Source: Desulfobulbaceae bacterium
Lineage (GTDB): Bacteria > Desulfobacterota > Desulfobulbia > Desulfobulbales > VMSU01
Direction: 5' to 3'
DNA length: 33,235 bases
Assembly: GCA_013792005.1 (NCBI GenBank)
Contig: VMSU01000032.1
Span: 1 to 33,235 of the forward strand
The notes below the pieces were generated by a model that saw only the letters and a list, made by a program, of their open reading frames with translations, ran no database searches and had not been told where the DNA came from. Below, in pieces: positions 4,952 to 26,410 of the stretch (positions are counted from its first letter, which is position 1; each line of letters starts with the position of its first letter). A program made the position numbers and the translations under genes.

Positions 4952-5000
4952 ACACCATTGCGTATTCATTTTGGCCATGCCTTCGGACTATATGTAAAAG

Positions 5001-5804: not shown

Positions 5805-5926
5805 CTGTTGTGACCGGTGTCCTTGGTTCTTGTCAAGAGCGTTTTGCTTTTACACATCCTCTAAGTTATTTAACTGGTTGAGATCTTTTTGTCACTCCTG
5901 CAAGTTGTTGGCAGAAAAATAGCCGC

Positions 5927-6111
5927 GTAAGCGATCACAGGACACCCCATCTGCTTCGCAGTCTCGCTGCGTTCGTTTAGCTGTCATGATGCTGCTCACA
6001 TACCAAATTATAGTTCGCAGCCCCATTTCACGCATCTGGGGTACCCTGCAATCGCTTACAGTTCTGAGGCAGAGCGCAGTTTCTAGTTTTTACCCCGTGA
6101 TCACTTACATA
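5927..6111. repeat. Degenerate inverted-repeat cluster between larE and the transpeptidase gene
   Basis: Three related copies of a motif close to GTAAGCGATCACAGGGTACC lie in about 190 bases. One is on the plus strand (5927-5950), and two are on the minus strand (about 6038-6060 and 6088-6111). The first two form an imperfect terminal inverted repeat of about 24 bp around a roughly 90 bp centre with no credible coding frame. This fits a small non-autonomous mobile element or a palindromic intergenic repeat. It fills most of the 330-base gap. Confidence 0.6.
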
Positions 6112-6135
6112 GCCGCTGTAAAGAGCTGCCCCTTG

Positions 6136-7480: not shown

Positions 7481-7796
7481 TCACACGAACAAACTAGGGT
7501 TCAGACAGACGCGAATCAAATCCATACGTCCGTGCAGAATACGAACAATCTCTATTGAATCCCCGGACTTTTGACGATAAAGTCATTATGTAACTGCCAG
7601 TATTTAATTTCCGGTAGCCATTCCGAATGTCGCTGCAATCTTTACCTTCAAGGGGATTTACGGCAAGTTGTTGAAATGAAGCATCCAGCATGGTTAGATA
7701 CAGATTGCGCTGTTCTCGCCCCCAACGTTCTTTTGTGTAATGACCAATCTCTTTTAAATCGGCTTTCGCCAAGTTAGTGAGGGTAAAAGATGCCAT
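7481..7796 (-). pseudogene. parE: ParE/RelE-family toxin gene with a frameshift
   Basis: The first 70 or so residues are ParE-like (LTNLAKADLKEIGHYTKERW, then PLEGKDCSDIRNGYRKLNTGSY). After SSKVRG the frame drifts into unlike sequence and stops at 7494. The expected ParE ending, SIEIVRILHGRMD, is intact in the +1 frame from about 7558 on and runs to a TGA at 7481. One extra base in the GGGG run at 7561-7564 explains the break. The gene may be inactive, or the base may be a sequence error. The ATG at 7796 overlaps the antitoxin stop as TGATG. ParE toxins poison DNA gyrase; RelE relatives cut mRNA. Confidence 0.75.
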
Positions 7797-8038
7797 CAAT
7801 TAAGACCTTCACCATCAAGTTCATTAATTAACCCCTTGAGGGAATAATCAGCCGTGCCGCTTTCTTCTCCTTCCAAAAGGGCTCGACGCAGCAATGATAG
7901 TTTAGTCTCACGTTCCTCCAAAAGGCGCAAACCAGCTCGGATAGCCTCGCTGGTAGAACCATAACGGCCTTGGCCAATCTGCTGAGAAATGAACTTTTCG
8001 TAATGAACGCCAAGCGTAACGCTGGTATTTTTTTGCAT
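7796..8038 (-). CDS. parD: ParD-like type II antitoxin
   Basis: An 80-residue protein. The ribbon-helix-helix N-terminus (VTLGVHYEKFISQQIGQGRYGSTSEAIRAGLRLLEERE) matches the ParD/CopG family, and the acidic C-terminus should wrap the toxin. The ATG at 8038 has a GGAGG seven bases upstream. A strong promoter lies just before it, and ParD proteins commonly repress such a promoter together with the toxin. The coding region shares one base with the downstream toxin start. The antitoxin appears intact while the toxin is broken. Confidence 0.9.
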   Translation of the reverse strand: MQKNTSVTLGVHYEKFISQQIGQGRYGSTSEAIRAGLRLLEERETKLSLLRRALLEGEESGTADYSLKGLINELDGEGLN

Positions 8039-8742: not shown

Positions 8743-9813
8743 TCAGTCATCATCCGTGTGTTCAATCTGTTTGAGCAGCCGGTCGAAGTCACTTTCAAAG
8801 AGTCGATCCTGAACAATGCGGTATTTTTCAAATTCACTTTCGGCATGAGCCTTGGCCAGCTCTGCGGTCACCTTTCCAGCGTCTTGTAAAATTTCCCTAT
8901 CCCAGAGTTTCAGGAACCCAGCCAAACGTTCTTCCCAGTCAGCCATGGTCATAGGGACTTTGCGCATGGCCTGCATTTCCGCCATATCCAGATAGGCCGA
9001 CACGATTCGCTGCATCTGCCCAAGTTCGAATTCCGACAGGTAATTCTTGGCAATAGAAACATCATATTTATGGATTTTCCCACTGGGAGCACCATCCCAA
9101 CTGGTCAGCCCCATGTTTTCTTTCTTGTGATCAGCGCGATCCACAAGGATCTCTGATGCAGTATTGCCATGGATGGCATAATGCATCTTATTCTGGACAG
9201 CCGCAAAGAACCGCTTGGTGGCTGTGGCGGATGGGTCGTAGTCCAATGCGGTGGCATAAATATCCGTAATCTTTTGGTAGAACTTACGTTCAGAAAGCCG
9301 GATCTCGCGGATCTTCTCCAACTGCCGCTCAAAGAAATCGTTCGTTAGAACACTACCGCCATGTTTCAGACGTTCCACATCCATGGTCCACCCCTGAATG
9401 GTGAAGTCCTTCACAATCTGGTTTGCCCACTTGCGGAACTGGATGGCACGCTCGTTTTCAATCTTGAAGCCCACAGCGATTATGGCCTGTAAACTGTAGT
9501 GATCTACCTCTCGTTTCACCTGCCTGTTACCCTCGGTTTGAACTATTAAGCATTTCTTAATAGTTGCCTCATGGGTCAACTCGTTATCAGAGTAAATGCG
9601 CTTAAGATGCTGATTTACAGCCGGAACCGTAACATCATAAAGTGTTGCCATCATCTTCTGCGGCAACCAGATATTTTCGTCTTCATACCGCATTTCCACG
9701 CTGGTTTCGCCGCTGCCGGTTGCCGCAACAAAAGTCAGATATTCAGCTGCTGAGGACCGAACGATAGAGGTCTCTTTTTTCCCGGACTTCTGAAGTTGCT
9801 TGTTCTTCTTCAT
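8743..9813 (-). CDS. RhuM-family protein (copy 1)
   Basis: A 356-residue member of the RhuM (virulence protein) family, named from Salmonella pathogenicity island 3. Its biochemical role is not established; members are frequent passengers in type I restriction loci. Typical stretches are ENIWLPQKMMATLYDV near the N-terminus, then IKKCLIVQTEGNRQVKREVDHYSLQAIIAVGFKI, and SERKFYQKITDIYATALDYDP in the middle. The N-terminal half resembles phage-type DNA-binding modules. It is clearly paralogous to the gene at 15459-16514. The ATG has GGAG seven bases upstream. It is the last gene of the island operon, 12 bases after the metallopeptidase gene. Confidence 0.88.
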   Translation of the reverse strand: MKKNKQLQKSGKKETSIVRSSAAEYLTFVAATGSGETSVEMRYEDENIWLPQKMMATLYDVTVPAVNQHLKRIYSDNELTHEATIKKCLIVQTEGNRQVKREVDHYSLQAIIAVGFKIENERAIQFRKWANQIVKDFTIQGWTMDVERLKHGGSVLTNDFFERQLEKIREIRLSERKFYQKITDIYATALDYDPSATATKRFFAAVQNKMHYAIHGNTASEILVDRADHKKENMGLTSWDGAPSGKIHKYDVSIAKNYLSEFELGQMQRIVSAYLDMAEMQAMRKVPMTMADWEERLAGFLKLWDREILQDAGKVTAELAKAHAESEFEKYRIVQDRLFESDFDRLLKQIEHTDDD

Positions 9814-9825
9814 CTCATATCTCCA

Positions 9826-10551
9826 TTAAACCATACTGAGTTCGAGTTTGTGTTTTATCTTCTCCCAGCCCGGGATGACAGAGTCGAGGAGCTTATAAAA
9901 TTCTGGGCTATGATCATGATATTTCAGGTGACACAGCTCATGCATAACAACATAGTCAATGCACTCTTTAGGCGCTCTGATCAGGTCTGTATTAAGGGTT
10001 ACCGTGCCCTTATCTGAAAGGCTGCCCCATCTCTTTTGCATTCGCTTAATGGATAGTTTAGGCTGGCCGATGCCCAGACCATTGAATTTTTGCCAGCAGC
10101 GCTCCATACTCACCGCAAATTGAAGCTGTGCCTTTTCCGAATACCATTGGTTTAAAAGTTTCTTGGCAGCATTTGGAGTCGGCTCACTCCGGCAAGTGAT
10201 ATGAAAAAAGCCGCGAGACAATTTCACTGAGTTTTCCGTGCCTTCAGCTAATTTCAATCGGTATTGCTTTCCAAGATACAGGTGGGTCTCACCGTTCACG
10301 TAGCAACGATCAGGCGTCTTTGGATTAAACTGCTTGAAATAATTCAGCTGCCTGAGAATCCAACGAGCCCGCTTTATTATTTTCTTCTCTATCACTGTGA
10401 TATCGGACTGCACGGGTGCCTTGATAAGAACCGTACTGTCAGGATGCACAGCAATTTCCATCGTTTTTCTGTCACAGTACAACAGACTGAAATCGATGGT
10501 CTTCCGGCCGTAAACAACCGAGTGTTTGTTGTTATGAATTAATGCCTCCAT
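9826..10551 (-). CDS. YgjP-like (DUF45) zinc metallopeptidase-fold protein
   Basis: A 241-residue protein of the YgjP/DUF45 family, often encoded next to hsdR. The zinc site appears as HELCH in YVVMHELCHLKYHDHSPEFY (HExxH type with a third His downstream). WGSLS and the conserved LIRAPKECIDYV are typical of the family. The family is presumed to hydrolyse a peptide or other substrate, but no role in restriction is established. The ATG overlaps the hsdR stop codon as TAATG, so the two are translationally coupled. The start is fixed by this overlap and by alignment with family length. Confidence 0.88.
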   Translation of the reverse strand: MEALIHNNKHSVVYGRKTIDFSLLYCDRKTMEIAVHPDSTVLIKAPVQSDITVIEKKIIKRARWILRQLNYFKQFNPKTPDRCYVNGETHLYLGKQYRLKLAEGTENSVKLSRGFFHITCRSEPTPNAAKKLLNQWYSEKAQLQFAVSMERCWQKFNGLGIGQPKLSIKRMQKRWGSLSDKGTVTLNTDLIRAPKECIDYVVMHELCHLKYHDHSPEFYKLLDSVIPGWEKIKHKLELSMV

Positions 10552-13500
10552 TATTTATAGCTCCTGTGCTTTGCCACCTGCAGAACCTTCTCGATGATGT
10601 CATCCATCTGATCAAGCGTCAGTTCGATCCCTCTTTCCGTCTTGAGCTCATCATAGAGGTAATCGTCAATCTCATTAACCGCCTGTTTCTGAGCGTCTTC
10701 ATCATCCCAGAAGTGAACCTTCTTGTGTTTTTCCAATATGCCATGAATAGCAATTGCCGTATCTGCAGCAGCGGATTCAAGGTCTTCTTCACCTAATTCG
10801 TGCTTTTCCAGGAAAGGCTTAAGTACACCGAAGTAGGCCATGGCATCTTCATTCCCGGAAAGCTTATCCGGTATGTCATCATGCACCTTGCCGACAACCT
10901 TGTTGCGGATATCCACGACTTTGTTCAGATAATCCAGGTCGGATATCCTTTTCGCCCTGAAATCTTCAATCGCCTGCTGGATCAGTTTTGAGAACTTCTC
11001 GTAAAACGCAGGGTCTTCATCCATCTTTTCGGTGATAACTTTCCTCAAAGCGTGTGCAATCGTATCAGCCTTTGAAGCCGTTGTTTTCTTGGTTTGGTAG
11101 ACGCCTTGCTCCTCTTTGACCTGATTAAACATTTTGTCGTCAAAGATATTGACCGGCTCATTCAGTTGAACAACTTCACTGGCTTGAATGTGGGTATCCA
11201 GCAGCTTTTTGATCTTTGGCTCATAATCCCGGTAGTCAATGGCCTCTGCATATCGGAGCTTGACAGACGCCTTGAGCGACTGGAATTTTCGAAGATCTGC
11301 CTTGTATCTGGACAAGGTTTTCTCATCGGTTTCGGTCAGGAAATTTTCGGAAGAAAGTGCAATGCCAAGGGTTTTCCAGAATTCCGAAAGACGGCCGTAA
11401 AACTCTTCTCTGAGCTCATCATCGGCAAGCAGCACTTCATAGGCTTCCTCATCGTAGGAGTGCTTAACCGTTTTGAATAGATCCCAAAGATCGGAATACC
11501 GGCCTGGCAGTTTTTCGATTTCGCTATTTATGGATGTCAAGGTGCCGACCAGATCGGATTCATCGAAACCTTCAAATGCGCTGTACATGGTAAGTGCTTT
11601 GTCCAGTTCACCGAGGACGCTTGCATAGTCGACGATAAAGCCGAACTCCTTACCCTCATGAAGACGGTTGACCCGGGCAATTGCCTGAAGCAGCGTGTGC
11701 TCCCTCAGCACCCTGCACAAATAGAGAACCGCGTTTCGCGGGGCGTCAAAACCCGTGAGCAGCTTATCAACAACAATAAGGATTTCAGGTTCACTACCAT
11801 GTTTAAACTGGTTGATGAGCTGCTTGGTATATTCGTCTTCACTGCCATAACGCTTCATCATTTTTTGCCAGAATTTCACGACCTCATCCGTTGTTTCATC
11901 ATCGGTCTCTTCATAGCCTTCACGCATATCCGGCGGCGAGATAACAACCTCGGAACTGACAATAGCAATCTCATTCAGGTACGCATTGTACTTAAGCGCG
12001 GATGCTTTATTCGGGGCCACCAGCTGTGCCTTGAATCCTGTTCCCTGCCAGTTGGACCGGAAGTGCTCACTGATGTCAAAGGCTCTCATGTATATGACCT
12101 GTTCCGCTTTGTTCAGCATTTCCGCTCGTGCATATTTCCGTTTCAGATCCGCCTGTTGCTCCTTGGTCAAGCCTTGAGTGTGTCGCTCAAACCACAAATC
12201 AACAGCGGTCTGGTTCTGTGTCATCTCTACATGCCGTCCCTCATACAGAAGCGGAACCACCGCGCCATCTTCAACGGCCTGTGTAATGGAATAATGGGGC
12301 TCCACCAGTTCACCGAATTTGGTAAAGTTGTTCTTTTCTTTTTTTAACAGCGGCGTGCCGGTAAATCCCAAATAACAGGCATGAGGAAACATCTGTCTCA
12401 TCCGGGCGGAAAAGGAACCGAACTGGGTACGGTGGCTCTCATCCACCAGGATGAAAATATCGGGCGATTCATCCTGATATTTCTTTACCGCGTAAGCCTT
12501 GTCGAACTTGTGAATGAGGGTTGTGATAATTCCTGACTTCTTTTCAGCAACCAACTCAAGCAGGTTTCTGCCCGATGTTGCCCGGTTCGCGTCAAGACCA
12601 CAGGCGGCAAAGGTGTTCCCAAGTTGTTTGTCGAGGTCATCACGGTCTGTCACCAGAACAATTCGCGGGTTCAGAATTTCAGGATCTAAGGCCAGGTTCC
12701 GGGCCAGCATCACCATGGTCAGGGATTTCCCTGAACCCTGAGTGTGCCAGATCACGCCGCCTTTACGCGAGTTGGTGCTATCAAAATGCTTTACCCGATT
12801 CAGGGTAGACTTGATGACGAAATACTGTTGATAGCGGGCAACCTTTTTGATTCCCCCATCAAATACCGTAAACTTCCACGCCAGCTCAAGCAACCGCTCG
12901 GGGCGACACAAAGAATACAAAGCGATATCCTGCTCCGTTACTAAGCGGGTTTTTGAAACCACTAATTCACACGAATTTTCACTAATATCAAAAGAAGCTG
13001 GGTTTACTTCATAGCGAAGCGACTTATCCACAATTGTTTTCAGCTTATTATATTCGTGTTCATTCGTGTCCATTCGTGGTTCCTTCCACATGGACCAGAA
13101 TTTTGCAGCGGTTCCCGTTGTTGCGTACATGGCGCTGTTTTTATTCATAGCCAGCACCATCTGGCTGTAGATGAAGAGCTTTGGAATATAGTCATCATTC
13201 TGATTTCTGATCGATTGCGAAACAGCCTGTTCCACTTCAATCTGCGGCGCTTTACACTCAATCACGCAAAACGGAATACCATTAACGAAGAGAACAATAT
13301 CCGGACGGGCCGTCTCTGTACTTCTGGAACGTTCAACACTATATTCGACCGTAACATGAAACTTGTTGCGACCGGGATTCCGCCAGTCGATATAGTTCAT
13401 GTTGAAGCTTTTTGAGTCGCCCTCAATGGTCTGCTCCATGGCCGTCCCAAGCGTAATCAGATCGTAAATGGACTCGTTGGTCTTCAGCAGGCCGTCGTAT

Positions 13501-13757
13501 TTGATGTTTTTCAGCTTCTGGATGGCCGACTGCACATTCTCCTCGCTGAAGAGATACTCACTGCCATCATGGCGACGGATGCGGTTTATCTCTTTGAGCT
13601 GGTTGCGCAGTATGCTCTCCAACAAGACATTGGAGGTGCGACCCTGGCGTTCGGCTAGTGCTTCTTCAGGAGAAATGTACTCGTAGTCCATCGCAATCAG
13701 CAATTGCAGGGCAGGGATTTGGCTCGTCAGTTTTTCGTTGGTTGCAAAATCACACAT
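10551..13757 (-). CDS. hsdR: Type I restriction enzyme R subunit
   Basis: The 1068-residue motor and nuclease subunit, which translocates and cuts DNA lacking the host methylation pattern, in complex with HsdM and HsdS. The PD-(D/E)xK nuclease motif is at Asp153 and Glu167-x-Lys169 (RPDIVLFVN, VIECKAP). The helicase part shows Walker A at about 339-346 (TQGSGKS), then DESH, GFTGTP and LLTGFDAP with downstream arginine motifs (QAIARVNRLHEGKEFG). Residues about 226-268 (beginning EPRMDTNEHE and ending SENSCELVVSK) are encoded by a repeat insert that keeps the frame; see the 12957-13083 feature. AAGGAA precedes the ATG. Its stop overlaps the next gene. Confidence 0.95.
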   Translation of the reverse strand: MCDFATNEKLTSQIPALQLLIAMDYEYISPEEALAERQGRTSNVLLESILRNQLKEINRIRRHDGSEYLFSEENVQSAIQKLKNIKYDGLLKTNESIYDLITLGTAMEQTIEGDSKSFNMNYIDWRNPGRNKFHVTVEYSVERSRSTETARPDIVLFVNGIPFCVIECKAPQIEVEQAVSQSIRNQNDDYIPKLFIYSQMVLAMNKNSAMYATTGTAAKFWSMWKEPRMDTNEHEYNKLKTIVDKSLRYEVNPASFDISENSCELVVSKTRLVTEQDIALYSLCRPERLLELAWKFTVFDGGIKKVARYQQYFVIKSTLNRVKHFDSTNSRKGGVIWHTQGSGKSLTMVMLARNLALDPEILNPRIVLVTDRDDLDKQLGNTFAACGLDANRATSGRNLLELVAEKKSGIITTLIHKFDKAYAVKKYQDESPDIFILVDESHRTQFGSFSARMRQMFPHACYLGFTGTPLLKKEKNNFTKFGELVEPHYSITQAVEDGAVVPLLYEGRHVEMTQNQTAVDLWFERHTQGLTKEQQADLKRKYARAEMLNKAEQVIYMRAFDISEHFRSNWQGTGFKAQLVAPNKASALKYNAYLNEIAIVSSEVVISPPDMREGYEETDDETTDEVVKFWQKMMKRYGSEDEYTKQLINQFKHGSEPEILIVVDKLLTGFDAPRNAVLYLCRVLREHTLLQAIARVNRLHEGKEFGFIVDYASVLGELDKALTMYSAFEGFDESDLVGTLTSINSEIEKLPGRYSDLWDLFKTVKHSYDEEAYEVLLADDELREEFYGRLSEFWKTLGIALSSENFLTETDEKTLSRYKADLRKFQSLKASVKLRYAEAIDYRDYEPKIKKLLDTHIQASEVVQLNEPVNIFDDKMFNQVKEEQGVYQTKKTTASKADTIAHALRKVITEKMDEDPAFYEKFSKLIQQAIEDFRAKRISDLDYLNKVVDIRNKVVGKVHDDIPDKLSGNEDAMAYFGVLKPFLEKHELGEEDLESAAADTAIAIHGILEKHKKVHFWDDEDAQKQAVNEIDDYLYDELKTERGIELTLDQMDDIIEKVLQVAKHRSYK
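12957..13083. mobile_element. In-frame MITE-like insert inside hsdR
   Basis: The ends are inverted copies of the dispersed repeat: AACCACTAATTCACACGAAT from 12957 and ATTCGTGTCCATTCGTGG from 13062, extending to 13083. The arms match at about three quarters of positions over nearly 40 bases. The roughly 125 bp between the outer ends is read through in frame by hsdR as about 41 codons. The arms match those around the GxxExxY gene at 23877-24304, including 22 identical bases on the right arm. It resembles a short, internally deleted form of that element. Confidence 0.65.
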
Positions 13758-13759
13758 GA

Positions 13760-14167
13760 TTATTCCTTAACTTCACAGTGACCACGAGTACCGCCAATTC
13801 GTTTTATCAGGCCATGGTCTCGCAGTTGCATAATATTTTTCTCAATAGCCGTTGTACTGACATCCAGCAATTCAGCCAGCTGGGCACCTGAAATCTTGGG
13901 ATTGGATTTCATCTCAACGAGAATCCGTTCTTTGGTATTACCCAACTGATTACCCAACTCTTCGGAAGTCGGTGCTTTCACCAGCTCAACCGCCACACCG
14001 CCTGTATTTTCCTCAATAACCGGCTCCGGCAGTCCAGCCGCTTTGCAGGCATCGGTGATCTTTTCAATGCCCCGTCCCCAAGAATCAATATAGCCGACCC
14101 AATAACAAACCTGGGCAGAAGCTTTAAACCATGGATGGAAACGGATACACACAGATGGATCACTCAT
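13760..14167 (-). pseudogene. C-terminal fragment of a RecG/AlbA-type ATP-binding transcriptional regulator
   Basis: The frame encodes about 135 residues. The stretch YIDSWGRGIEKITDACKAAGLPEP followed by a hydrophobic strand is the C-terminal signature of the HATPase_c_4 part of AlbA_2/RecG-like ATP-binding proteins. It is followed by a winged-helix segment (KISGAQLAELLDVSTTAIEKNIMQLRDHGLIKR). The AlbA domain and most of the ATPase are missing. The replaced N-terminus (SVCIRFHPWFKA) is encoded by a degenerate dispersed repeat (about 14127-14160, pattern ATGGATGGAAACGGATACAC). The start overlaps the DUF1016 stop by 8 bases. A short translated product is possible, but it cannot be a complete regulator. 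Confidence 0.75.
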
Positions 14168-15302
14168 GATCGGATTCCTCCAGTTTTTTGAAGTCATCCT
14201 CGATTTCCTCCACCGTAGGGAGTGAACCCTTTAACTCATCGGGCAACACTTCGGTCAGAGTGAATTCACTGACGCCCATGGGCTTGTTGATGTCGCGCAG
14301 AGCAAATTTCGTTTCAATCTTGTTTTTGTCACGGCAGAGCAGAATCCCGATGGTGGGATTATCGCCGTCGCTCTTGAGCAGGCTATCGACCGCCGAAAGA
14401 TAGAAATTAAGCTTTCCGGAGTATTCAGGAATGAATTTTGTGTTTTTGAGTTCAATCACCACATAACATTTCAGCCTAATATGGTAAAACAGCAGATCCA
14501 GGTAATAATCGCTTTCGCCAACTTCCAAATGATATTGCCGTCCGACAAAAGCGAAACCCTTGCCAAGTTCCAATAGAAATTTGGTGATATGTTCGATCAG
14601 CTGATTTTCAATATCCCGCTCATTATAAGGGTGAGTCATGCTCAGGAAATCAAAGGTGTACGGGTCTTTGATGGTTTGTTGCGCCAGATCCGATTGTGGG
14701 GAAGGTAGGGTTGCCTTAAAGTTGCTGATTGCCGTACCCTGCCGGGCAAAAAGGTTGGATTTAATCTGCAAGGCCAGAACATCCCGGCTCCAGCCGTTTT
14801 CGATAGTCTGTTGAATGTAAAACCGGGCTTGCTGGCAGTCAGAGACTTTATCCAATAAAATCTTGATATGACTCCAAGGCAATTGTCCCCCGATCTGCTG
14901 GACAATTGACGGAACCGTTTGTGCCCCGCTTCGAGGCACTATTTCAGATTCCAATTGTGCCCCCGACTGGGGCACAATTAGCTCTTGATCAGAAAAGGAG
15001 CTAAAAACTTCATAAAACTTCTTGGTATAGTAGAGGTTGCGGCGAGAGAATCCCTGCGTATCCGGAAATTCAGAGCTTAAATCCTTTGCCAGTTGATCTA
15101 TAACCTTGGCTCCCCAGTCCGTCTCCGCCAGCTTGCGGGAAATATCTCCTCCAAGCTCCCAATAAAACAAAATCAGCTCACGACTAGCCGCCAAGGCCGC
15201 CCGAAGCTGTGTTATACGAATCTTCGCTTTCAATTCTTTCAGCCACAAAGCGTAATCGCCTTTGGTAGGTGCTGTGTTTTTTTTTAATTCATCACTCATC
15301 AT
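14160..15302 (-). CDS. DUF1016/YhcG-family PD-(D/E)xK nuclease-domain protein
   Basis: A 380-residue protein of the YhcG family. The N-terminal DUF1016_N helical domain (residues about 15-105) includes LILFYWELGGDISRK and FSRRNLYYTKKFYEVF. The C-terminal nuclease fold has Asp269 in YYLDLLFYH and Glu284-x-Lys286 in VVIELKNTKF. Members occur in restriction and defence loci and are thought to be nucleases; the target is unknown. The linker carries a short internal repeat (IVPQSGAQ at 109-116 and IVPRSGAQ at 121-128, with a third weaker unit at 133-140). The ATG at 15302 takes its ribosome site (GAGG) from a copy of a dispersed 21 bp repeat. Confidence 0.9.
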   Translation of the reverse strand: MMSDELKKNTAPTKGDYALWLKELKAKIRITQLRAALAASRELILFYWELGGDISRKLAETDWGAKVIDQLAKDLSSEFPDTQGFSRRNLYYTKKFYEVFSSFSDQELIVPQSGAQLESEIVPRSGAQTVPSIVQQIGGQLPWSHIKILLDKVSDCQQARFYIQQTIENGWSRDVLALQIKSNLFARQGTAISNFKATLPSPQSDLAQQTIKDPYTFDFLSMTHPYNERDIENQLIEHITKFLLELGKGFAFVGRQYHLEVGESDYYLDLLFYHIRLKCYVVIELKNTKFIPEYSGKLNFYLSAVDSLLKSDGDNPTIGILLCRDKNKIETKFALRDINKPMGVSEFTLTEVLPDELKGSLPTVEEIEDDFKKLEESDHE

Positions 15303-15458: not shown

Positions 15459-16514
15459 TCACGCATCGCTTTTTCCTTTCTTTTTGGTGGATTCGATCTG
15501 TTTGACAGCATTATCAAAATCATTGAGTGACTTTGCCGAATCCACAAGGCGTTTGCTGTGAAACTTCTCGTATTCGTATTCTGCCAATTGCTTCGCCATC
15601 TCATGGGAGATTTTACCGGCATGGGTGAGAATGTCGCGGTCGTTTAGCGTCATAAAGCTGTCCAGCTTTTTAATCCAGTGGCTCATATACATCGGGATAC
15701 GACGCATGGCCTGTCCCTGTGCAAAAATCAGATATTGTTCAACCAGATTATTCAGTGCCGCCAATTCATCCTCATTCAGATAATTTTTGGCAATAGGCAC
15801 ATCCTGTTTGCGGACTTTTGCACCACGGTAATTGGTGAGACCCATGTTCGGCTTGTCGGCATCCGCTCTGGAATGAATGATCTCCGCCGCCGTCTGGCCG
15901 GTGATGGCCCAGTGCATTTTGTTCTGAACGGTTTTGAAGAATTCAATGCTGATGTCCAGGGTTGGGTCATAGTCGATACTGGTCGCATAGATATCAGTAA
16001 TTTTCTGATAAAAACGACGCTCCGAAGTGCGAATATCCTGAATGCGCCGTTCAAGCTCTTCAAAATAGTCAAAGGGCTGATCGGGGTTTTTCAGTCGCTC
16101 ATCATCCAGCAAAAAACCCTTCTTAATAAATTCTGTCAGTTGCTGGGTTGCCCAGATGCGGAAACGAGTCGCCACATGGCTTTTAACCCGATAGCCGACG
16201 GAGATAATCATGTCCAGATTGTAGAAGTCCACCATTCGGGCAACTTGTCGATTCCCCTCCATTCGAACTATCCGGAATTTCCGGATAGTTGCCTCTGGAG
16301 TCAGCTCTCTTTCTTCATAAATATTCTGAATATGCTCACTTATGGTTCGAACATCCTTCTGAAAAAGCTCTGCCATTAACCCCTGAGAAAGCCAGACAGA
16401 CTCATCCTCAAACCGAACATCCAGCTTCAGTTTGCCGTCTTCAGCCTGATAGACCAAAAACTGTCCTTTGGGTTCTTCCATATTTCCATCTTTGGCTTTT
16501 AAATCATCATTCAT
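15459..16514 (-). CDS. RhuM-family protein (copy 2)
   Basis: A 351-residue RhuM-family paralogue of the protein at 8743-9813. Shared marks are SVWLSQGLMAELFQKDVRTISEHI, ATIRKFRIVRMEGNRQVARMVDFYNLDMIISVGYRV (interrupted positions differ), and ERRFYQKITDIYATSIDYDP. The two copies share order and length but differ at many residues, so they are old paralogues or separate acquisitions. Function is unknown; the genomic company of hsd genes suggests a link to restriction or its control. The ATG at 16514 lies eight bases after a GAGG supplied by repeat copy B. Confidence 0.88.
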   Translation of the reverse strand: MNDDLKAKDGNMEEPKGQFLVYQAEDGKLKLDVRFEDESVWLSQGLMAELFQKDVRTISEHIQNIYEERELTPEATIRKFRIVRMEGNRQVARMVDFYNLDMIISVGYRVKSHVATRFRIWATQQLTEFIKKGFLLDDERLKNPDQPFDYFEELERRIQDIRTSERRFYQKITDIYATSIDYDPTLDISIEFFKTVQNKMHWAITGQTAAEIIHSRADADKPNMGLTNYRGAKVRKQDVPIAKNYLNEDELAALNNLVEQYLIFAQGQAMRRIPMYMSHWIKKLDSFMTLNDRDILTHAGKISHEMAKQLAEYEYEKFHSKRLVDSAKSLNDFDNAVKQIESTKKKGKSDA

Positions 16515-16611: not shown

Positions 16612-18141
16612 CTAAACATTTTGTTTTCTAATGATAAAGGTTCGCATTTCACCTATGGATTGTCCTAATTCATTGGTTGTGAATCTCTGGTTTTGAGTGT
16701 TTTCAGGATGATGAATTTGGTGTCGGATATATTCACTCGAAATTATCTGTATTTCCGAAACACTTCCGTTCCGCTCTTTTTTGTAAGCACGATTAGGCTT
16801 GCCGTTTTTGTAGTCAGTTAGCCACCCTTCACTTTCAATGTAGCCATACAATTCATTGTGATAACCATCGTCAGATTCGTTGAAGGCAAGGAAGTTTACT
16901 TCGTTAAGTGAGGGATAAGGCAAATTATGCTTTTCAATATTTACAATCTCTTTGGCCTGACTCCCTTTGATCAGCTTCAGGTGCTCAAAATTCAACATTT
17001 TGACAATCGCAGGGCTATGAGTCGTCAAAATGATTTGAGTGTGTTGGCTCTTCGACAGTTCAATGAAAGCATCAATGAGTTTTTTCTGATGATCAGGGTG
17101 CTGAGATGTTTCTGGCTCCTCAATTGCGTAAATAATATCAGAAACATTTTTTTCACTTCTTCTTCTCTCTGCCTCAGCCCTGAAAAAGTTTAGTAGAACA
17201 AGCCTTTTCACACCGCTTCCACGCTTATTTATCGGAATATCTTCATCCCCTGAAATAGAGACATTCTTGAAAACGTCTGCCCATTTTAGGCTTTCAACCA
17301 AAGGAATGACGGGATTCAGGCTGTTGGCAATTTCCGGATTCATCTCTTTCAGTTTTTCCAACGTCCGATCAGCTACCTCTTTAAGTTTAGAACCAACTTC
17401 TGTCGCTATTTGCTTGAGCGAAGATTGAATACTTGCGTCCTTCAAGATTTCTTGAACAGCCCACTTCATCGGGTCTTGTATCTCGCTGTCACCATCACTG
17501 TTCTTTCGATCAGATTGAAAGAGAGAATACAGCGGCATGTAGTTTTTGAGCTGGTCCCAAATATTCTTAGCGTCTTCTTTGGTTACATCTATTGTAACTT
17601 CGCTAAGTTGAAGATTGTCCGAATAATGCGCCCAAATGGCTTTGCGCATGACGGCATTTTTCTTTTCATCATCACAGGTAATCGAGTCTTTTTTAATGAT
17701 CGACTGCAAGTCCTTCTGCTTTTTTAGAAGAAGGTCTGCGCAGGCTGGATTAGAGGGATGGTTTGCCTTTACAGACACTTTTTCCTTGCCAGCATTCGGG
17801 TAGATTTTGACGATCTCCAGCTTGCTGCGACTATTTAAGAGATATTCATCTTGAAGCGTCGTTCCGTTTGTGCTGTCAATCACCAAGCTGACCGGCAAAT
17901 CCTCAAAAACGACAGCAATGCAGATATCATTATTTCCCTCTGCAAGCCCTTGTTTGTTGATATCTTCCTTATCCAGTTTTATGACTCCTTTGCCATCATT
18001 AAAGAACACATCAAGAGCCTCAAGCACCGTTGATTTTCCCACATCATTTTTCCCAACGAATACAGTCAGATTGTTGAAATCAATAGTGGTTTCATCTTTG
18101 TAACCACGAAAGTTTGATATTTAAATCTGTGATATTTTCAT
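16612..18141 (-). pseudogene. OLD-like AAA/ABC-type ATPase with nonsense codon 7
   Basis: The full frame from the ATG at 18141 would give 509 residues: MKISQI, then TAA (18121-18123), then ISNFRGYKDETTIDFNNL and VFVGKNDVGKST (Walker A at 30-38). The family normally has a lysine where the TAA stands (AAA to TAA). Downstream are an ABC-like signature (RGSGVKRLVLLNFF), Walker B (YAIEEPE) and an H-loop (TTHSPA), so the ATPase is otherwise intact. I see no TOPRIM domain of true OLD nucleases. The C-terminus carries RHQIHH (from Arg473), an Rx4H pattern like HEPN ribonucleases. The ATG lies two bases after the hsdS stop. A GTG at 18042 would start inside Walker A and give a crippled protein. Confidence 0.75.
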
Positions 18142-18143
18142 GA

Positions 18144-19328
18144 TTACGCCTCCATGTATTGCTTAACGATTTCAGGTTTTACCCGCCACTCGCCCGTCAG
18201 CATTTTCTGCATCAGTCCGCGTTTCTGGTTTTTGTATTTATCTGCGAGCTGTTTCAGTAGTTCGATTTCCTGCTGGCAAACGGACAGAGTTTCAGCAATT
18301 TCTTTTTGTTCTTCGAGAGGAGGAACTGGAATCTTAATGCTCAGGAAATCTGGTATGCTTATCTGTTTCCCGTCCCGGATACCGATTACGGCGAGGTTCA
18401 AGTACTTCTCAATGAAGATGTAGGACTTAAAAAATAGCCGGTAAAAGTCACTGTTCAATTCAATTTTCGGTCTCAACACGGTATACGCAGGGCTGATGAT
18501 CCCTTGGTAATTCGAGTATTCAATGCCTCCCTGGAATGAACGAAGACTTATCGCAAAATCTCCATGCTTTATGAGTTTATAGCTGGCTGTCGTACCATCG
18601 GGTGACATGACTCGGCCTTCCAACATGCTGCGAGGAATAACGCCACGATCTTGGGTAACCGACAGAAGCTCCTCATCGGGAAAATTCTTTTCTGTTATCG
18701 TGTCGAATATTTTCTTCGGTTTGATATGGGGCCAGGTATCGCACCGCTGGCTAATCAGTTTTTGAATCTGGCCCTTTAAGCGGGCTTCTTTCGCCTGAAT
18801 CAACCGTTCGGTTTTCTCGATGGCCTCATCCCAGGTGGACAGCAGATCGGCAATGGCCTTTTGTTCGGGAAGTGGAGGGAGAAGAACCGGAATAATTCCA
18901 ACCAAGCCAAGGTTTAGGTTCCCCTGTCCACTACTATTGCTTAACGCTCTGATATTTGTGTAATTGAACAGCAAATACTGGAAAATGTACCAGCTGTCGC
19001 ATTGCTCGCCACAAACGATCGTTGCGGCATTCTGGTTTGTGCAGGCTTCAAAATTCAAATACCCGACTTGGCCACGTGTCTTTCCCTGTCCGATCATACC
19101 GAGAAGAATTGTATTTTGGGGAACCATCTTTGCTGATGATTTTTTCAATCCCTCTTCCGTGATCCATTCATCTATATCTTGCTTATTTATGATGCAGTTC
19201 TGAATTTGCGTTGTCTTTACCCATGGTACATTGCCATCCCAGTATGCAGGGTTTGTCCGTGAAGGTGTGCCGCCTGAAGAAATGTCTGCGATGTCTCCAA
19301 GAACAACCCGTTTATGCTTAACACTCAT
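18144..19328 (-). CDS. hsdS: Type I restriction-modification specificity subunit (full length)
   Basis: A 394-residue HsdS with two target-recognition domains, which set the bipartite DNA sequence recognised by the HsdM/HsdR complex. The first repeat begins RVVLGDIADISSGGTPSR and ends in the coiled coil LPEQKAIADLLSTWDEAIEKTERLI. The second ends LEEQKEIAETLSVCQQEIELLKQLADKYKNQKRGLMQKML. The ATG at 19328 is chosen over an in-frame TTG at 19349 because AAGGAG lies just before it. The gene is separated from hsdM by three satellite genes and is directly followed by the AAA-ATPase gene. The gene and its partner lie between 27 bp inverted repeats. Confidence 0.92.
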   Translation of the reverse strand: MSVKHKRVVLGDIADISSGGTPSRTNPAYWDGNVPWVKTTQIQNCIINKQDIDEWITEEGLKKSSAKMVPQNTILLGMIGQGKTRGQVGYLNFEACTNQNAATIVCGEQCDSWYIFQYLLFNYTNIRALSNSSGQGNLNLGLVGIIPVLLPPLPEQKAIADLLSTWDEAIEKTERLIQAKEARLKGQIQKLISQRCDTWPHIKPKKIFDTITEKNFPDEELLSVTQDRGVIPRSMLEGRVMSPDGTTASYKLIKHGDFAISLRSFQGGIEYSNYQGIISPAYTVLRPKIELNSDFYRLFFKSYIFIEKYLNLAVIGIRDGKQISIPDFLSIKIPVPPLEEQKEIAETLSVCQQEIELLKQLADKYKNQKRGLMQKMLTGEWRVKPEIVKQYMEA

Positions 19329-19350
19329 CGCTGAATCTCCTTGAGCCAAG

Positions 19351-19507: not shown

Positions 19508-20418
19508 CTTCCTCCCAGCTTTTTAAGCATCTCAACCGCTCCAACTTCAAATTTTGAGAAGGCAAACCACTTTTTGCCGAGATCTTTTAAAGACGCTCCA
19601 ATGTGGTAAATTTCCTCTTCATCAATAATCAGGAAGCGGTCGTGTGCTTTTTTGAAAACTTCAATAATTATTGGCGGGTATTGTTCATTGTGTTTTTTTA
19701 GATCCAAAGCAAGCTGTTTTGAAATGGTTTTACTATATACGGTTGCCTGCACGCCTTTTTTGCGTTTGCCGAGAAGCGTCAGGACAGAATCATCGACATA
19801 ATTGTCAATGAGAACCAGACTACTCTTTGCCTTGCTGATGAGATCTGCGAAAAAGACGTAGGCGTCATAAACCTGTCCATCATAGAAGATTCCCTGCTTG
19901 GGCAATTCTCCAGCTTCCAAAGCATGAAATATTTTCTCGAAATTCTTTTCTGTAGCGGATTCAAAGGTGATCTGCCGACGCTCTACCGAATCCAGTCGGG
20001 CAAAAACATTGGCGTTATGCTGGAGAAATCGCCGCATTTCTACAAAGGCATTGATAATCTGAATACTGGCTTTAATGGCGGTTTCACTTCGCAGAACGGC
20101 GGAAAGCATGGACACCCCCTGTTCGGTGAAGACATAGGGAAGGTACCTTCTACCTCCGTGCCCACTTGAAGTCACAATTTGTGATCTTAAGTCGGACCGG
20201 TCGCAATTTGCGACCAGTTGTTGTTTCTCCTCCACTGTGATCTGAAACCTGAAAGCTTCAGGGAAACGATCAATATTTCGTTTAACGGCTTGGTTGAGCA
20301 CTCTGGTTTCAACTCCGTAGACGGTTGCCAAATCCTGGTCGAGCATCACCTGAATTCCTCGAACGGTGAAAATCATTTTTTGAAGATTTTCCATTGGCGC
20401 AAGCTCTTGCTTGTTCAT
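19498..20418 (-). CDS. ORF6N-domain protein with C-terminal PLD-like region
   Basis: A 306-residue protein. Its N-terminal ORF6N domain (IFTVRGIQVMLDQDLATVYG, RVLNQAVKRNIDRFPEAFRF, FTEQGVSMLSAVLRS) is a phage-type DNA-binding module. The C-terminal part (SKAKSSLVLIDNYVDDSVL, KKAHDRFLIIDEEEIYHIGASL) resembles phospholipase-D-like folds, with HDRFLIID reminiscent of an HxK/HxxxxxxD site, though catalytic residues are incomplete. It is often found in restriction loci; its function is unknown. The ATG at 20418 overlaps the upstream stop as ATGA. Its last residues GGSHE and stop come from the dispersed repeat. Confidence 0.85.
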   Translation of the reverse strand: MNKQELAPMENLQKMIFTVRGIQVMLDQDLATVYGVETRVLNQAVKRNIDRFPEAFRFQITVEEKQQLVANCDRSDLRSQIVTSSGHGGRRYLPYVFTEQGVSMLSAVLRSETAIKASIQIINAFVEMRRFLQHNANVFARLDSVERRQITFESATEKNFEKIFHALEAGELPKQGIFYDGQVYDAYVFFADLISKAKSSLVLIDNYVDDSVLTLLGKRKKGVQATVYSKTISKQLALDLKKHNEQYPPIIIEVFKKAHDRFLIIDEEEIYHIGASLKDLGKKWFAFSKFEVGAVEMLKKLGGSHE

Positions 20419-21221
20419 CTTTCCACTTCCAATACTAGGCAATTTGTCTGTCCTTCGGGAGGCAGTTCTTCCGGTTTAATGCCGCGCTCATCCAGCATAT
20501 TGCGGACGCTGGTGTTGTTTTGAACATGTTCGCCGGTGATTGCAGGTTCACCTTGCAGATCATTCTGGCGGACATTGTGATTGGTGATTTCCGTTGCCAG
20601 ATTTTTCGCTGCAATGGTCACGGTTGGTAGAAAGTCTGCTAAGGGGCGATTGGAAGGTATGGCAAGTTTGTCTTTCATCCGGGCGGTGGTATTTCCGCCG
20701 AACAGGGCAGCATCACCTTTGGAACGGATTCGCCCGAAGCCCTGATCATCGACACCTCGCTCATAAATATTTCGAGAAAGTTCCGTTTCCGATTCGGTCA
20801 ATTTCTGCCTGGCCTGAAGGCGTTCTTGCAAGCGCAGCCGTTCTTCAATCAGCTCCTGTTTTCGTGTCTGCACCGCGAAATAGGTCTGGGCAAAGGCAAT
20901 GGCTTCCTTGCGAGGGTCGCCGTTCTGGGCAATCAGGTAACAGGCATAACGGGTGAGCATGATGTCCTCAACCGGACGCTCCGCCCCGGAACCGATCTGG
21001 ACCATTTTCGTGACGCCACGAAAATGGTTGGCAACCACCCCGCCTGAGGTCTCACAAGCAATGGATGCTTTGTGGATGACTTTGCTGAAATTTTCCCATC
21101 GGTCATACCCGAGAGTTATCATAATCTCTCTTGCATACCAAAACTCTGTTGATTCATCAGGAATCTGGCGAACGAGAGCATCAAATGAGATTGTCAGTTT
21201 GGTAATCGTATTTTTATCCAT
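20415..21221 (-). CDS. dinD: DinD-like protein (copy 1)
   Basis: A 268-residue homologue of E. coli DNA-damage-inducible protein D, which is reported to antagonise RecA filament activity. Typical stretches are STEFWYAREIMITLGYDRWENF, GSGAERPVEDIMLTRYACYLIAQNGD and AIAFAQTYFAVQTRKQELIEERL, and the C-terminus is the usual SVRNMLDERGIKPEELPP. In type I restriction islands this family is a common satellite, possibly moderating DNA damage from restriction (inference). No LexA-type box is visible upstream. The start ATG follows GGGG after 8 bases; the stop overlaps the ORF6N start by four bases. Confidence 0.9.
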   Translation of the reverse strand: MDKNTITKLTISFDALVRQIPDESTEFWYAREIMITLGYDRWENFSKVIHKASIACETSGGVVANHFRGVTKMVQIGSGAERPVEDIMLTRYACYLIAQNGDPRKEAIAFAQTYFAVQTRKQELIEERLRLQERLQARQKLTESETELSRNIYERGVDDQGFGRIRSKGDAALFGGNTTARMKDKLAIPSNRPLADFLPTVTIAAKNLATEITNHNVRQNDLQGEPAITGEHVQNNTSVRNMLDERGIKPEELPPEGQTNCLVLEVER

Positions 21222-21274: not shown

Positions 21275-21340
21275 TGTGAATTTCGTGCCTTTCGTGGCTC
21301 CCTAAACCATTGGTGTAAATTCGTGTTCATTCGTGGTTAC
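21275..21340. repeat. CACGAAT-type repeats between the two dinD genes
   Basis: Two reversed units, GAATTTCGTGCCTTTCGTGG (from 21278) and AAATTCGTGTTCATTCGTGG (from 21317). The second contains the stop codon of dinD copy 2 (21327-21329) and sets its last residues NHE. Confidence 0.75.
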
Positions 21341-22178
21341 CTCCCAACTGTTTCTTCGTCTGCCGTTCCAGCTTCTTCAGATCTTCATCCGGTGTTGGCA
21401 GGTCTTCCGGCATGGTGCCGCCCAGCTCTTCGATGGTCTGACGCACTTTCTTACCGACCTCAAAATGGGTTGTATTGGCTTTGGTTTTGCCCTGAATATT
21501 TTCCCGGCGGAGTTTTTCTTCGGTTTGTGTGGCACGAAAGAGGTTGGCGGCCAGTTCTGTGCTGCCCATGTTATCCAAAATCTGCTGGCTCTTTTTCAGC
21601 CCTTTATGCTGATGAATACCCTTGGCATCCAATCCGCCGTAAAGTCCCTTGTAACCGTGGTTCTGGAAGATGGCAAAATCCAGATTGGATTCCACACCGG
21701 CCTGCTGCGCAGCTTCGACCAGCATTTTGTTGTGCTCCTTCATCTCATTGCGGAGAAACAGCCGCTTTTCATCCTCTTTCAGGCGCTGAAAGGCTTCATT
21801 GTCGGATAGTTCCTGACGTCGGGTCTGGATGGCGAAATAGGTCTGTCCGTTGGCAATGACCGGTTTGGATGGGTCGCCATTCTGGACGATCAGGTAACAG
21901 GCGTAGCGGGAGAGGGCGTAGGACTCCATCTTGCGTTCAGCCCCGGAGCCAATCAGGACCATCTCGTGCATCTCCACGAAATGATCCGACACCGGCTGGT
22001 CACTGTTGGCACAGGCCTTTTTGGCCTTTTCAATCACCGGCAGAAAATTTCTGAACTCCGCATAATCCAGTATCTTGCCAAGCCGTCTTGCCAGCCAGAA
22101 CTCTGAACCGTCATTTCCGGTCTGTTTGATATTCTCAAACGTCTGATGATGCCGCTTTTCTATGTTTTTATTACTCAT
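21327..22178 (-). CDS. dinD: DinD-like protein (copy 2)
   Basis: A 283-residue second DinD paralogue with GSEFWLARRLGKILDYAEFRNF, GSGAERKMESYALSRYACYL and YFAIQTRRQELSDNEAFQRL. The C-terminus is FEVGKKVRQTIEELGGTMPE, as in the family. It differs strongly from copy 1 in the N-terminal half, so the two are not a recent duplication. The ATG at 22178 lies 82 bases after hsdM, with a 28 bp perfect palindrome in between. Its last residues GGNHE are encoded by the dispersed repeat. Confidence 0.9.
   Translation of the reverse strand: MSNKNIEKRHHQTFENIKQTGNDGSEFWLARRLGKILDYAEFRNFLPVIEKAKKACANSDQPVSDHFVEMHEMVLIGSGAERKMESYALSRYACYLIVQNGDPSKPVIANGQTYFAIQTRRQELSDNEAFQRLKEDEKRLFLRNEMKEHNKMLVEAAQQAGVESNLDFAIFQNHGYKGLYGGLDAKGIHQHKGLKKSQQILDNMGSTELAANLFRATQTEEKLRRENIQGKTKANTTHFEVGKKVRQTIEELGGTMPEDLPTPDEDLKKLERQTKKQLGGNHE

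Positions 22179-22260: not shown

Positions 22261-22263
<3 letters not shown>
22233..22263. repeat. CACGAAT-type repeat at the end of hsdM
   Basis: The reversed unit ATTCGTGTAATTTGGTGTGC plus CATTCATGGTT lies immediately behind the hsdM stop codon and overlaps it by a few bases. Confidence 0.6.
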
Positions 22264-23853
<1,590 letters not shown>

Positions 23854-23876: not shown

Positions 23877-24304
23877 AACCACGAATGGACACTAATTTTC
23901 ACGAATGGGGTTAGAGAACAATTCGCTCCCATTCCAGTTTTGCATGCTTAAAATTCAGTAATAGCCCGACTCGCAGACCCGTTATTTTGAGATAATTGAT
24001 TAATTGTGCTCTTTCATTGTTGCCGATCGCTTCGATGATTTTGGCATCTATCACAATCTGATCAAAGGCGATCAGGTCGGGAATGTATTCTCCAACCTGA
24101 ATGGTTTTGTAGATGACCGGGAAACGAGCTTGTTGCTTGTAGGGAATACCTTTCAATCCAAACTCAACGACCAATGCATTTTCATATGGTTTTTCCAGCA
24201 AGCCATGCCCAAGCGTGTTCAATATCTCCATGGCACAACCCACAATCTGATACACCTCATCTTTCAGTAATAATTCGTGTTTATTCGTGTCCATTCGTGG
24301 TTCC
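23877..24304. mobile_element. Putative inverted-repeat element carrying a GxxExxY gene
   Basis: AACCACGAATGGACACTAAT at 23877 and the reversed AATTCGTGTTTATTCGTG from 24272 to 24304 form terminal inverted repeats around a single GxxExxY gene. The outer arms match those of the insert inside hsdR, including 22 identical bases at 24283-24304 and 13062-13083. The left arms of both share the pattern TTTTCAC-AAT. There is no transposase gene, and target-site duplications were not resolved. Confidence 0.55.
23911..24294 (-). CDS. GxxExxY protein (PD-(D/E)xK nuclease-like)
   Basis: A 127-residue protein of the GxxExxY family, named for the motif seen here as GLLEKPY (Gly31, Glu34, Tyr37). The later stretch YIPDLIAFDQIVIDAKIIEAI has the layout of a PD-(D/E)xK nuclease core, with Asp-Ala-Lys at the usual ExK place; activity is not proven for the family. 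The start MDTNKHE, its ATG, and most of the ribosome site (AAGGAACCACGA) are supplied by the terminal repeat. The gene overlaps the end of the half-size hsdS. It may be cargo of the bracketing repeat element rather than part of the restriction system. Confidence 0.85.
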   Translation of the reverse strand: MDTNKHELLLKDEVYQIVGCAMEILNTLGHGLLEKPYENALVVEFGLKGIPYKQQARFPVIYKTIQVGEYIPDLIAFDQIVIDAKIIEAIGNNERAQLINYLKITGLRVGLLLNFKHAKLEWERIVL

Positions 24305-24874
24305 TTTTGCAAACTGCATTAGCAGTGTTGAAATGTATTGTTCCCGCTTGTCGGCCAGCGTATGAAGCAGGGTTTGTTCTCTCGCGATAAGCGTGGCCAG
24401 CTCTACGATGTTTTTCTGCTTTTCCAGGCTTGGCAGCGCCACCTCCAGATCTTCAATTGCCTGCTTGCTGATCATTTTCTGAACCGTCCCCTTGGCCCGG
24501 CTGGTCAAAAAAATCTGCGCATCCCGCTGGCTGATGTACCAGTTCAGATACTCGGGCAAAATCTTGTCCGGCTTGGTCACCCTTATCCTTAATAAAGGAG
24601 CGGCGACAACTGCCTTGCCCGGATCTTCAAGAAGAACCGCTGCTGTGGTCACATGACCGCGAGACCTGAATACCAGATCGCCTCTTTGCGCGAGGTGGTG
24701 CTCTTTCATGGCCTCCATATTGATTCTGACCAAATCATCACAGCCGACCGTGTTGTCATCCAGAAGATCCTTCATCTGAATAACTGCAACTCCGCCATCT
24801 TCAGAGGCTTCGAGACGAGACCTGAACGAATATCCCATCTGCACGGTTGCCATTTTTTTTATTTTCATCTTCAT
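24281..24874 (-). CDS. Half-size HsdS-like specificity protein
   Basis: A 197-residue protein with one target-recognition domain. MATVQMGYSFRSRLEASEDGGVAVIQMKDL opens it, GTVQKMISKQAIEDLEVALPSLEKQ is the central conserved stretch, and the C-terminal coiled coil (ELATLIAREQTLLHTLADKREQYISTLL) would pair it with a second copy or with HsdM. Half-size subunits can act as dimers. Its last residues NGHE and stop codon lie within the inverted repeat of the downstream GxxExxY element, so the original C-terminus may have been altered by the insertion. AAGGTG precedes the ATG. It is the first gene of the operon. Confidence 0.82.
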   Translation of the reverse strand: MKMKIKKMATVQMGYSFRSRLEASEDGGVAVIQMKDLLDDNTVGCDDLVRINMEAMKEHHLAQRGDLVFRSRGHVTTAAVLLEDPGKAVVAAPLLRIRVTKPDKILPEYLNWYISQRDAQIFLTSRAKGTVQKMISKQAIEDLEVALPSLEKQKNIVELATLIAREQTLLHTLADKREQYISTLLMQFAKGTTNGHE

Positions 24875-25503: not shown

Positions 25504-25863
25504 TGGTGGAGGCGCCGGGAGTTGAACCCGGGTCCGAAAATACTCCCCCTCAAGCGTCTACATGCGTGTTCCTGATTAATTGCTTATCGCGCCTCAGCCC
25601 TTCCAGGACCAAAAGGCTTTTAGCGCTATCCAGCTAAGTTTCGCCAGGCGGCGGCAGGAGCACCGGGAGGCTATCCCATGAAGTCGGCGTCCGCATCCCA
25701 CCCCATGGGAGAGGGCAAGAGAAGACGGTAGCAGTGATTAAGCTGCTACGGCGTAATTATAGTCGTCTGCGACTGTGTTTATGTTCAACCTGTTTAACGA
25801 GTGTGAAGAGAACTCGGCATGCAGCCTGGGCTTATGTACCCCCGTCGAAACCGTTTCGCCCCC
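25504..25863 (-). ncRNA. ssrA: tmRNA (10Sa RNA)
   Basis: A 360-base transfer-messenger RNA that rescues stalled ribosomes together with SmpB. The 5' end GGGGGCG pairs with CGCCTCC at the 3' end, and the CCA is encoded (25506-25504). The T arm reads CCGGGTTCAACTCCCGG, and the 5' part contains CGGTTTCGACGGGG. The tag reading frame at 25770-25738 gives ADDYNYAVAA followed by TAA, with GTC just before the resume codon as in other tmRNAs. The 3' end is the probable integration point of the neighbouring island. Confidence 0.95.
25738..25770 (-). other. tmRNA proteolysis-tag frame
   Basis: Resume codon GCA at 25770-25768, then GAC GAC TAT AAT TAC GCC GTA GCA GCT TAA. The tag ADDYNYAVAA ends in the AVAA type of degradation signal recognised by ClpXP-like proteases. 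Confidence 0.85.
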
Positions 25864-25907: not shown

Positions 25908-26399
25908 TTACTTACTGAATCTGTTGCCTTTGTTGAGTCGGTTCAACTCCCGATCGTTTTCCCGCTGTTTGATGGAATCGCGTTTGTCGTAGAGTTTTTT
26001 ACCGCGGGCCAGACCTAACGCCACCTTGGCCTTGCCGTTAGCCTTAAAGTATATCCTTAAAGGGATTAAGGCAACCCCCTTTTCCTTGACCTTGCCGATT
26101 AATTTCTTGATCTCGCTTCTGCGAAGTAAGAGTTTGCGTGGCCTCATCGGGTCAGGAGCTGAGTTGGTAGTGAAGGCGTAAGGTGTGATGTGCACATTAT
26201 AGAGGAAGACCTCGTCTTTGACGATTTTGGCGTAGCCATCACCGAGATTGGTCTTGCCCTCACGCAGGGATTTGACTTCCGGGCCAAGAAGGGAAATGCC
26301 TGCCTCGATGGTTTCTTCAATGAAAAAGTCATGGGTTGCCTTTCTGTTGGAACCAATAACTTTGCCGGGTGTTGGTGTTTTCTTGGGATGTTTGGTCAT
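25908..26399 (-). CDS. smpB: SsrA-binding protein
   Basis: A 163-residue SmpB, which binds the tRNA-like part of tmRNA and delivers it to stalled ribosomes. The OB-like barrel contains RKATHDFFIEETIEAGISLLGPEVKSLREGKTNL and YNVHITPYAF. The basic tail includes LGLARGKKLYDKRDSIKQREND, which enters the empty mRNA channel. The ATG at 26399 with GAGAG upstream is preferred over an in-frame TTG at 26414. It is next to its RNA partner ssrA (44 bases away) and follows the GspE/PilB gene by 11 bases. Confidence 0.96.
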   Translation of the reverse strand: MTKHPKKTPTPGKVIGSNRKATHDFFIEETIEAGISLLGPEVKSLREGKTNLGDGYAKIVKDEVFLYNVHITPYAFTTNSAPDPMRPRKLLLRRSEIKKLIGKVKEKGVALIPLRIYFKANGKAKVALGLARGKKLYDKRDSIKQRENDRELNRLNKGNRFSK

Positions 26400-26410
26400 A
26401 ACATGTGCTC

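Follow-up and report, generated by a model that had tools for sequence, protein, structure and literature searches.

OLD proteins are described in the literature as carrying a Toprim nuclease, either fused to the ATPase or encoded separately. The tRNase of PARIS, AriB, is restrained by the OLD-type ATPase AriA and set free when an anti-restriction protein of a phage is sensed (PMC12409363, PMC12839542). The anticodon nuclease PrrC is kept in check by a type I restriction enzyme and is released by the phage peptide Stp; PrrC and RloC have the catalytic triad R-x3-E...H, and only 8 of 73 RloC cases mapped to restriction loci (PMC2610378). Fusions of ABC ATPases with HEPN domains are also known, including APECO1_4465 and ERFG_01251, some of which lie in restriction-modification loci with RhuM (Anantharaman et al. 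2013, PMC3710099). HEPN domains are 100 to 120 residues long and have four helices, an insert between helices 2 and 3, and a motif ending helix 3 (Rx4-6H, with N, D, or H right after the R), as well as a conserved acid in helix 2, often in the form Ex3[KR] (PMC3710099).

We analyzed a 33,235-nucleotide stretch of a Desulfobulbaceae genome (the window), in which a broken gene for an OLD-type ATPase lies directly behind the type I specificity gene hsdS. We think it somewhat probable that this gene represents a one-gene antiphage (abortive-infection) ATPase-RNase effector, which was acquired horizontally and recently inactivated in the window genome.

A broken gene directly behind hsdS

The gene occupies positions 16612 to 18141 of the minus strand (codons 1 to 509 and a stop) and encodes an OLD-type ABC ATPase (AAA_15; E value, 1.8e-90) with a HEPN-like C-terminal domain. 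Its ATG (18139-18141) follows the hsdS stop codon (18144-18146) after a two-base gap, and a ribosome-binding site graded good, GGAGG, is found 7 bases upstream of the ATG. Codon 7 is TAA (18121-18123), whereas codons 8 to 509 (502 codons) are open up to the terminal stop at 16612-16614. The early nonsense codon reported in the earlier note is thus present, and the start region is lost by this one codon. For comparison, relatives were collected from one genome per species; 146 were found, 80 were kept, and 78, all intact, were aligned with the window copy (79 sequences in total). Because codon 7 is a sense codon in all 78 homologues, the TAA is private to the window genome, and because the frame behind it is 58 to 85% identical to these 78 proteins, it is not a chance reading frame.

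Besides the ATG, the frame offers a single usual start up to the end of the P-loop, a GTG at codon 34 (18042), which sits within the Walker A motif GKNDVGKS (codons 30 to 37; 18031-18054). A mechanical gene caller begins the gene at this GTG and thereby loses the first half of the motif. Since Walker A would be cut in half, reinitiation at codon 34 would give no working ATPase. Rescue by read-through, a downstream start, or a frameshift was considered and rejected, as there is no usable start and nothing in its support. A working protein is therefore not expected from this gene in the window genome.

The nearest homologue, from a lake metagenome genome (L003), is 85% identical and intact. The dN/dS of the window copy against it is about 0.055, with dS near saturation, and the window copy shows 1 departure across 170 near-invariant columns, where the family mean is about 2. 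These observations indicate that the loss, if real, is recent, in agreement with the earlier note, and together with the intact ATPase and C-terminal motifs the low dN/dS rules out a long-dead pseudogene. Two further copies are each broken by a single TAA, one from a Campylobacterota genome (L141/L151) at codon 15 and one from Billgrantia desiderata (L060, about 4980-6500) at codon 120; the rest of the frame is intact in both. Nearly all copies in the family are intact, with 3 broken in about 87. This is within the range of ordinary bacterial pseudogenes, so that no special mechanism is needed. With three cases (codons 7, 15, and 120), we do not claim that stops are concentrated toward the 5' end.

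We infer that the TAA is a true mutation. It is possible, although rather doubtful, that it is instead an artifact of sequencing or assembly, or that it stems from a minority strain in a mixed assembly, and that the organism keeps a working gene. A single substitution in an otherwise fully open and conserved frame would fit such an artifact, as would a genome in 252 contigs and a species represented by one genome; however, substitution errors are seldom found in finished consensus sequence, and the Campylobacterota and Billgrantia copies, which are unrelated, also carry a single TAA. That the stop is read through or bypassed and a full product still made is highly improbable. The constraint on the remainder of the frame is in its favor, but TAA is the stop codon with the least leakiness, the only available start lies within Walker A, and none of the 78 aligned relatives keeps a stop at codon 7. 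The suggestion in the earlier note of a read-through site is unsupported.

The ATPase and the C-terminal domain

Pfam assigns residues 8 to 380 to AAA_15 (over the cutoff) and nothing past residue 380. The ATPase motifs are intact and invariant in the window copy and in the family; in the alignment of 79 sequences, Walker A is followed by the near-invariant ABC signature-like stretch NKRGSGVKRL (codons 305 to 314; 17200-17229), the Walker B/D-loop YAIEEPET (codons 338 to 345; 17107-17130), and the H-switch TTHS (codons 373 to 376; 17014-17025), all on the minus strand. The first profile and Foldseek matches are OLD nucleases, namely, that of Thermus scotoductus (TsOLD; 6p74) and GajA, and Retron-Eco8, Septu, and SMC heads appear among later matches. 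The nearest relatives outside the family are plasmid-borne and 41 to 44% identical across residues 1 to 391. They are about 610 to 650 residues long, and in two of the three that were scanned the ATPase is followed by an OLD-like Toprim domain (PF20469). Relatives sharing only the ATPase, from viral contigs and other genomes, likewise have frames of mostly more than 600 residues. The Pfam scan of the window protein gave no match to PF20469, and its frame ends about 110 residues past the ATPase. In the tree, a long, well-supported branch parts the family from two longer ATPase-sharing relatives. We conclude that an OLD-type ATPase has here had its effector domain exchanged. Judged by its sequence, the window protein is without Toprim and so, strictly speaking, falls outside the OLD nucleases; with a HEPN-like domain in the place of Toprim, an RNase rather than a DNase would be expected, and for a true HEPN domain the RNase activity should be metal-independent.

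The C-terminal domain (codons 395 to 509; 16615-16959, minus strand) carries an R-[HND]-x3-H motif. In all 79 aligned sequences, R473, I476, H477, and H478 of RHQIHH (codons 473 to 478; 16708-16725) are invariant, as is Glu430 (16852-16854) in predicted helix 2. The conservation of Arg473 and His478, the residues to which the earlier note had pointed, is thus complete, and these two and the acid fall among just 20 invariant columns of the domain. The residue after R473 is H in 77 of the 79 and N in the other 2, and it is D in one copy outside the alignment (L139). The homologue set is biased toward the motif, since HQIHHPEN was one of six peptide search patterns; the R and the H are also kept in copies that were found by whole-profile search or ATPase patterns (L130, L137 to L141, and L153 to L155).

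An AlphaFold2 model of the 115 residues (mean pLDDT, 92.2) has helices at residues 18 to 26 and 31 to 43, a hairpin at 56 to 73, and helices at 74 to 83 and 95 to 114, with the motif at 79 to 84. The predicted order (helix, helix, beta-hairpin insert, helix, helix, with the motif ending helix 3) agrees with the HEPN description (PMC3710099) as far as the order of elements is concerned. Position +4 from Glu430 is F or Y, however, and Ex3[KR] was not seen in helix 2. No significant HEPN match was obtained by Pfam, PADLOC, PDB sequence and profile searches, Foldseek (PDB and viral), VIA-align, or hhalign. The best VIA-align Z score was 3.6, in a comparison without a HEPN row, which does not speak for the absence of HEPN. 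Against the Abi_C, Apea, and RiboL-PSP HEPN alignments, hhalign gave nothing significant, although it aligned RHQIHH with the RiboL-PSP family's HEPN motif; because these accepted HEPN families did not match one another either, the test is low in power. Of the HEPN-type end proposed in the earlier note, the Rx4H motif and a compatible predicted topology have held up, and a significant match to a solved HEPN fold has not been obtained. HEPN is the best reading of the domain from its sequence and predicted structure, likely but unproven.

The domain might instead be a small interaction or nucleic-acid-binding domain and no nuclease, and the ATPase might work by itself or together with an unlinked partner; we consider this reading unlikely. 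The lack of a fold match would be explained, noncatalytic HEPN domains have been described (PMC3710099), and E. coli YbjD is reported to need its ATPase domain while its Toprim domain is dispensable (PMC13261556). However, the placement of R, H, and the acid within so few invariant columns is as expected of an active site, and no recurrent partner gene is found next door in the relatives.

Restriction linkage and mobility

The restriction region comprises hsdM, two DinD-like genes, ORF6N, hsdS, the broken gene, RhuM, YhcG, a relic, and hsdR, and those with positions given below are on the minus strand. The type I genes are hsdM (22261-23853; TIGR00497; E value, 6e-88, over the cutoff), hsdS (18144-19349; Methylase_S; E value, 2.3e-36), and hsdR (10551-13757; TIGR00348; E value, 8.8e-143). 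Besides the full-length hsdS, a gene upstream of hsdM (24281-24874) encodes an HsdS of half length that has one target-recognition domain. The DinD-like (Bro-N) genes are in tandem (20415-21221 and 21327-22178). A RhuM-like gene lies directly downstream of the broken gene (15459-16514; PF13310; E value, 6.7e-112), and a second RhuM-family gene is present in the region (8743-9813); in Sulfurospirillum (L006), a RhuM gene is likewise found directly behind the ATPase-HEPN-like gene. The relic (13760-14197) is the C-terminal part of a RecG-like/AlbA_2 ATP-binding regulator (HATPase_c_4 and HTH), a sign that decay in the island extends beyond the broken gene. On the low side, the region is accompanied by a ParDE toxin-antitoxin pair (7494-8038, minus strand). 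On the high side, it is flanked by the tmRNA gene (25504-25863) and smpB (25908-26414), also on the minus strand. Integration often takes place at ssrA, the tmRNA gene; a search of the window for a direct repeat of its 3' end that would bound an island found none.

An insertion behind hsdS recurs in the family. We found hsdS or a remnant of it directly upstream in about 10 of 87 copies (the window, L003, L004, L046, L051, L070, and four Campylobacterota loci), a count that is a lower bound, as the gene lies close to a contig end in some cases. In the four Campylobacterota genomes, the order is hsdM-hsdS-gene-hsdR, which is the prrC position, with short gaps or overlaps between the genes in most of these loci. 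The broken Campylobacterota copy lies within such a complete operon. The position behind hsdS that the earlier note had stressed is therefore confirmed in the window and has counterparts in these operons. The tree groups the window copy with L003 and L004 in one supported clade and the four Campylobacterota copies in another, and the Bacteroidota cases stand apart. Since hsdS-linked copies fall in separate clades, the type I link probably arose more than once and is stable in some branches. The immediate neighbors in relatives are very diverse and include many restriction or defense genes. Because most relatives do not adjoin restriction genes, control by such an enzyme is not a feature of the family as a whole; the restriction link proposed in the earlier note applies to the window and to a minority of relatives.

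The gene has a patchy distribution, with related copies across many phyla, and of the 395 genomes sampled from its phylum, the window genome alone has this version. The GC content at 17001-18000 (0.42) is the lowest of any 1-kb segment in the window. A mobile, horizontally acquired gene is the best reading of these data.

Proposed mechanism and comparison with known systems

By analogy with PARIS and PrrC, the intact protein may combine a sensor and latch with an RNase domain. Its N-terminal OLD-type ABC ATPase would dimerize or oligomerize on ATP and restrain the C-terminal HEPN-like domain. Upon infection, perhaps signaled by DNA ends or by inhibition of the neighboring type I enzyme, pairing of the HEPN-like domains would lead to cleavage of RNA, possibly of tRNA, and translation would be halted before phage is made. 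For copies flanked by hsdS and hsdR, the restriction enzyme could plausibly serve as an additional latch, and stand-alone copies must have their own trigger. We regard as evenly poised the broader view that these proteins are a widespread class of OLD ATPases with a HEPN RNase for Toprim, repeatedly placed at the prrC position. On this view, they would parallel PrrC independently, answer to a trigger of their own, and owe their occasional silencing by single nonsense codons to their cost. If true, the existence of a large, highly conserved sister family with an RNase-type domain would imply that the ATPase is a general sensor for varied effectors, and domain swaps between relatives could part sensor from effector. 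The recurrent place behind hsdS would make coupling between an RNase and a restriction enzyme testable in a second case.

The window family resembles PrrC and RloC in joining an ABC ATPase to a C-terminal domain of RNase type, predicted in the case of the window family, and in its place between hsdS and hsdR in some loci. Like RloC, it is linked to restriction genes in a minority of cases, and the invariable type I linkage of PrrC holds in the window but not across the family. These likenesses would fit a true PrrC/RloC anticodon nuclease kept silent by the type I enzyme, as would the low frequency of restriction linkage in RloC; nevertheless, we consider this very unlikely. The ATPase of PrrC and RloC is AAA_13, whereas the Pfam scan of the window protein lists AAA_15 and not AAA_13. 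No R-x3-E before the invariant His is found among the invariant C-terminal residues of the 79 aligned sequences, and the protein, at 509 residues, is without the long zinc-hook insert of the PrrC/RloC group. Membership in PrrC is ruled out by the ATPase family and the triad, and the kinship suggested in the earlier note is not borne out.

The AriA models of PARIS match the ATPase of the window protein (PADLOC PDLC02979; E value, 5e-78), and the logic of an ATPase sensor with an RNA-cutting effector may, by analogy, be shared. PARIS differs in its Toprim/DUF4435 AriB, whereas the effector domain of the window family is fused and of another type. AriB was not found in the window protein, in the scanned window neighbors, or among the listed neighbor families of relatives, and an assignment to PARIS was rejected. 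PADLOC 2.0.0 has no model covering the whole protein; because AAA_15-based AriA models match its ATPase, the family can be misfiled as PARIS, and in practice a detector using the AAA_15 model alone would mislabel it.

No OLD ATPase with a HEPN domain was found described in the literature searched, although the ABC-HEPN groups of Anantharaman et al. (PMC3710099) could include the family. Compared by description only, those fusions share with it the domain logic and the restriction-locus and RhuM neighbors, the latter in the window and in Sulfurospirillum. The OLD nucleases of class 1 (P2 Old and Thermus scotoductus OLD) and the plasmid AAA_15-Toprim proteins have an N-terminal ABC ATPase of the same family, and OLD nucleases, too, are mostly single, mobile genes; where they carry a C-terminal Toprim domain, the window family has a HEPN-like domain of about 110 residues.
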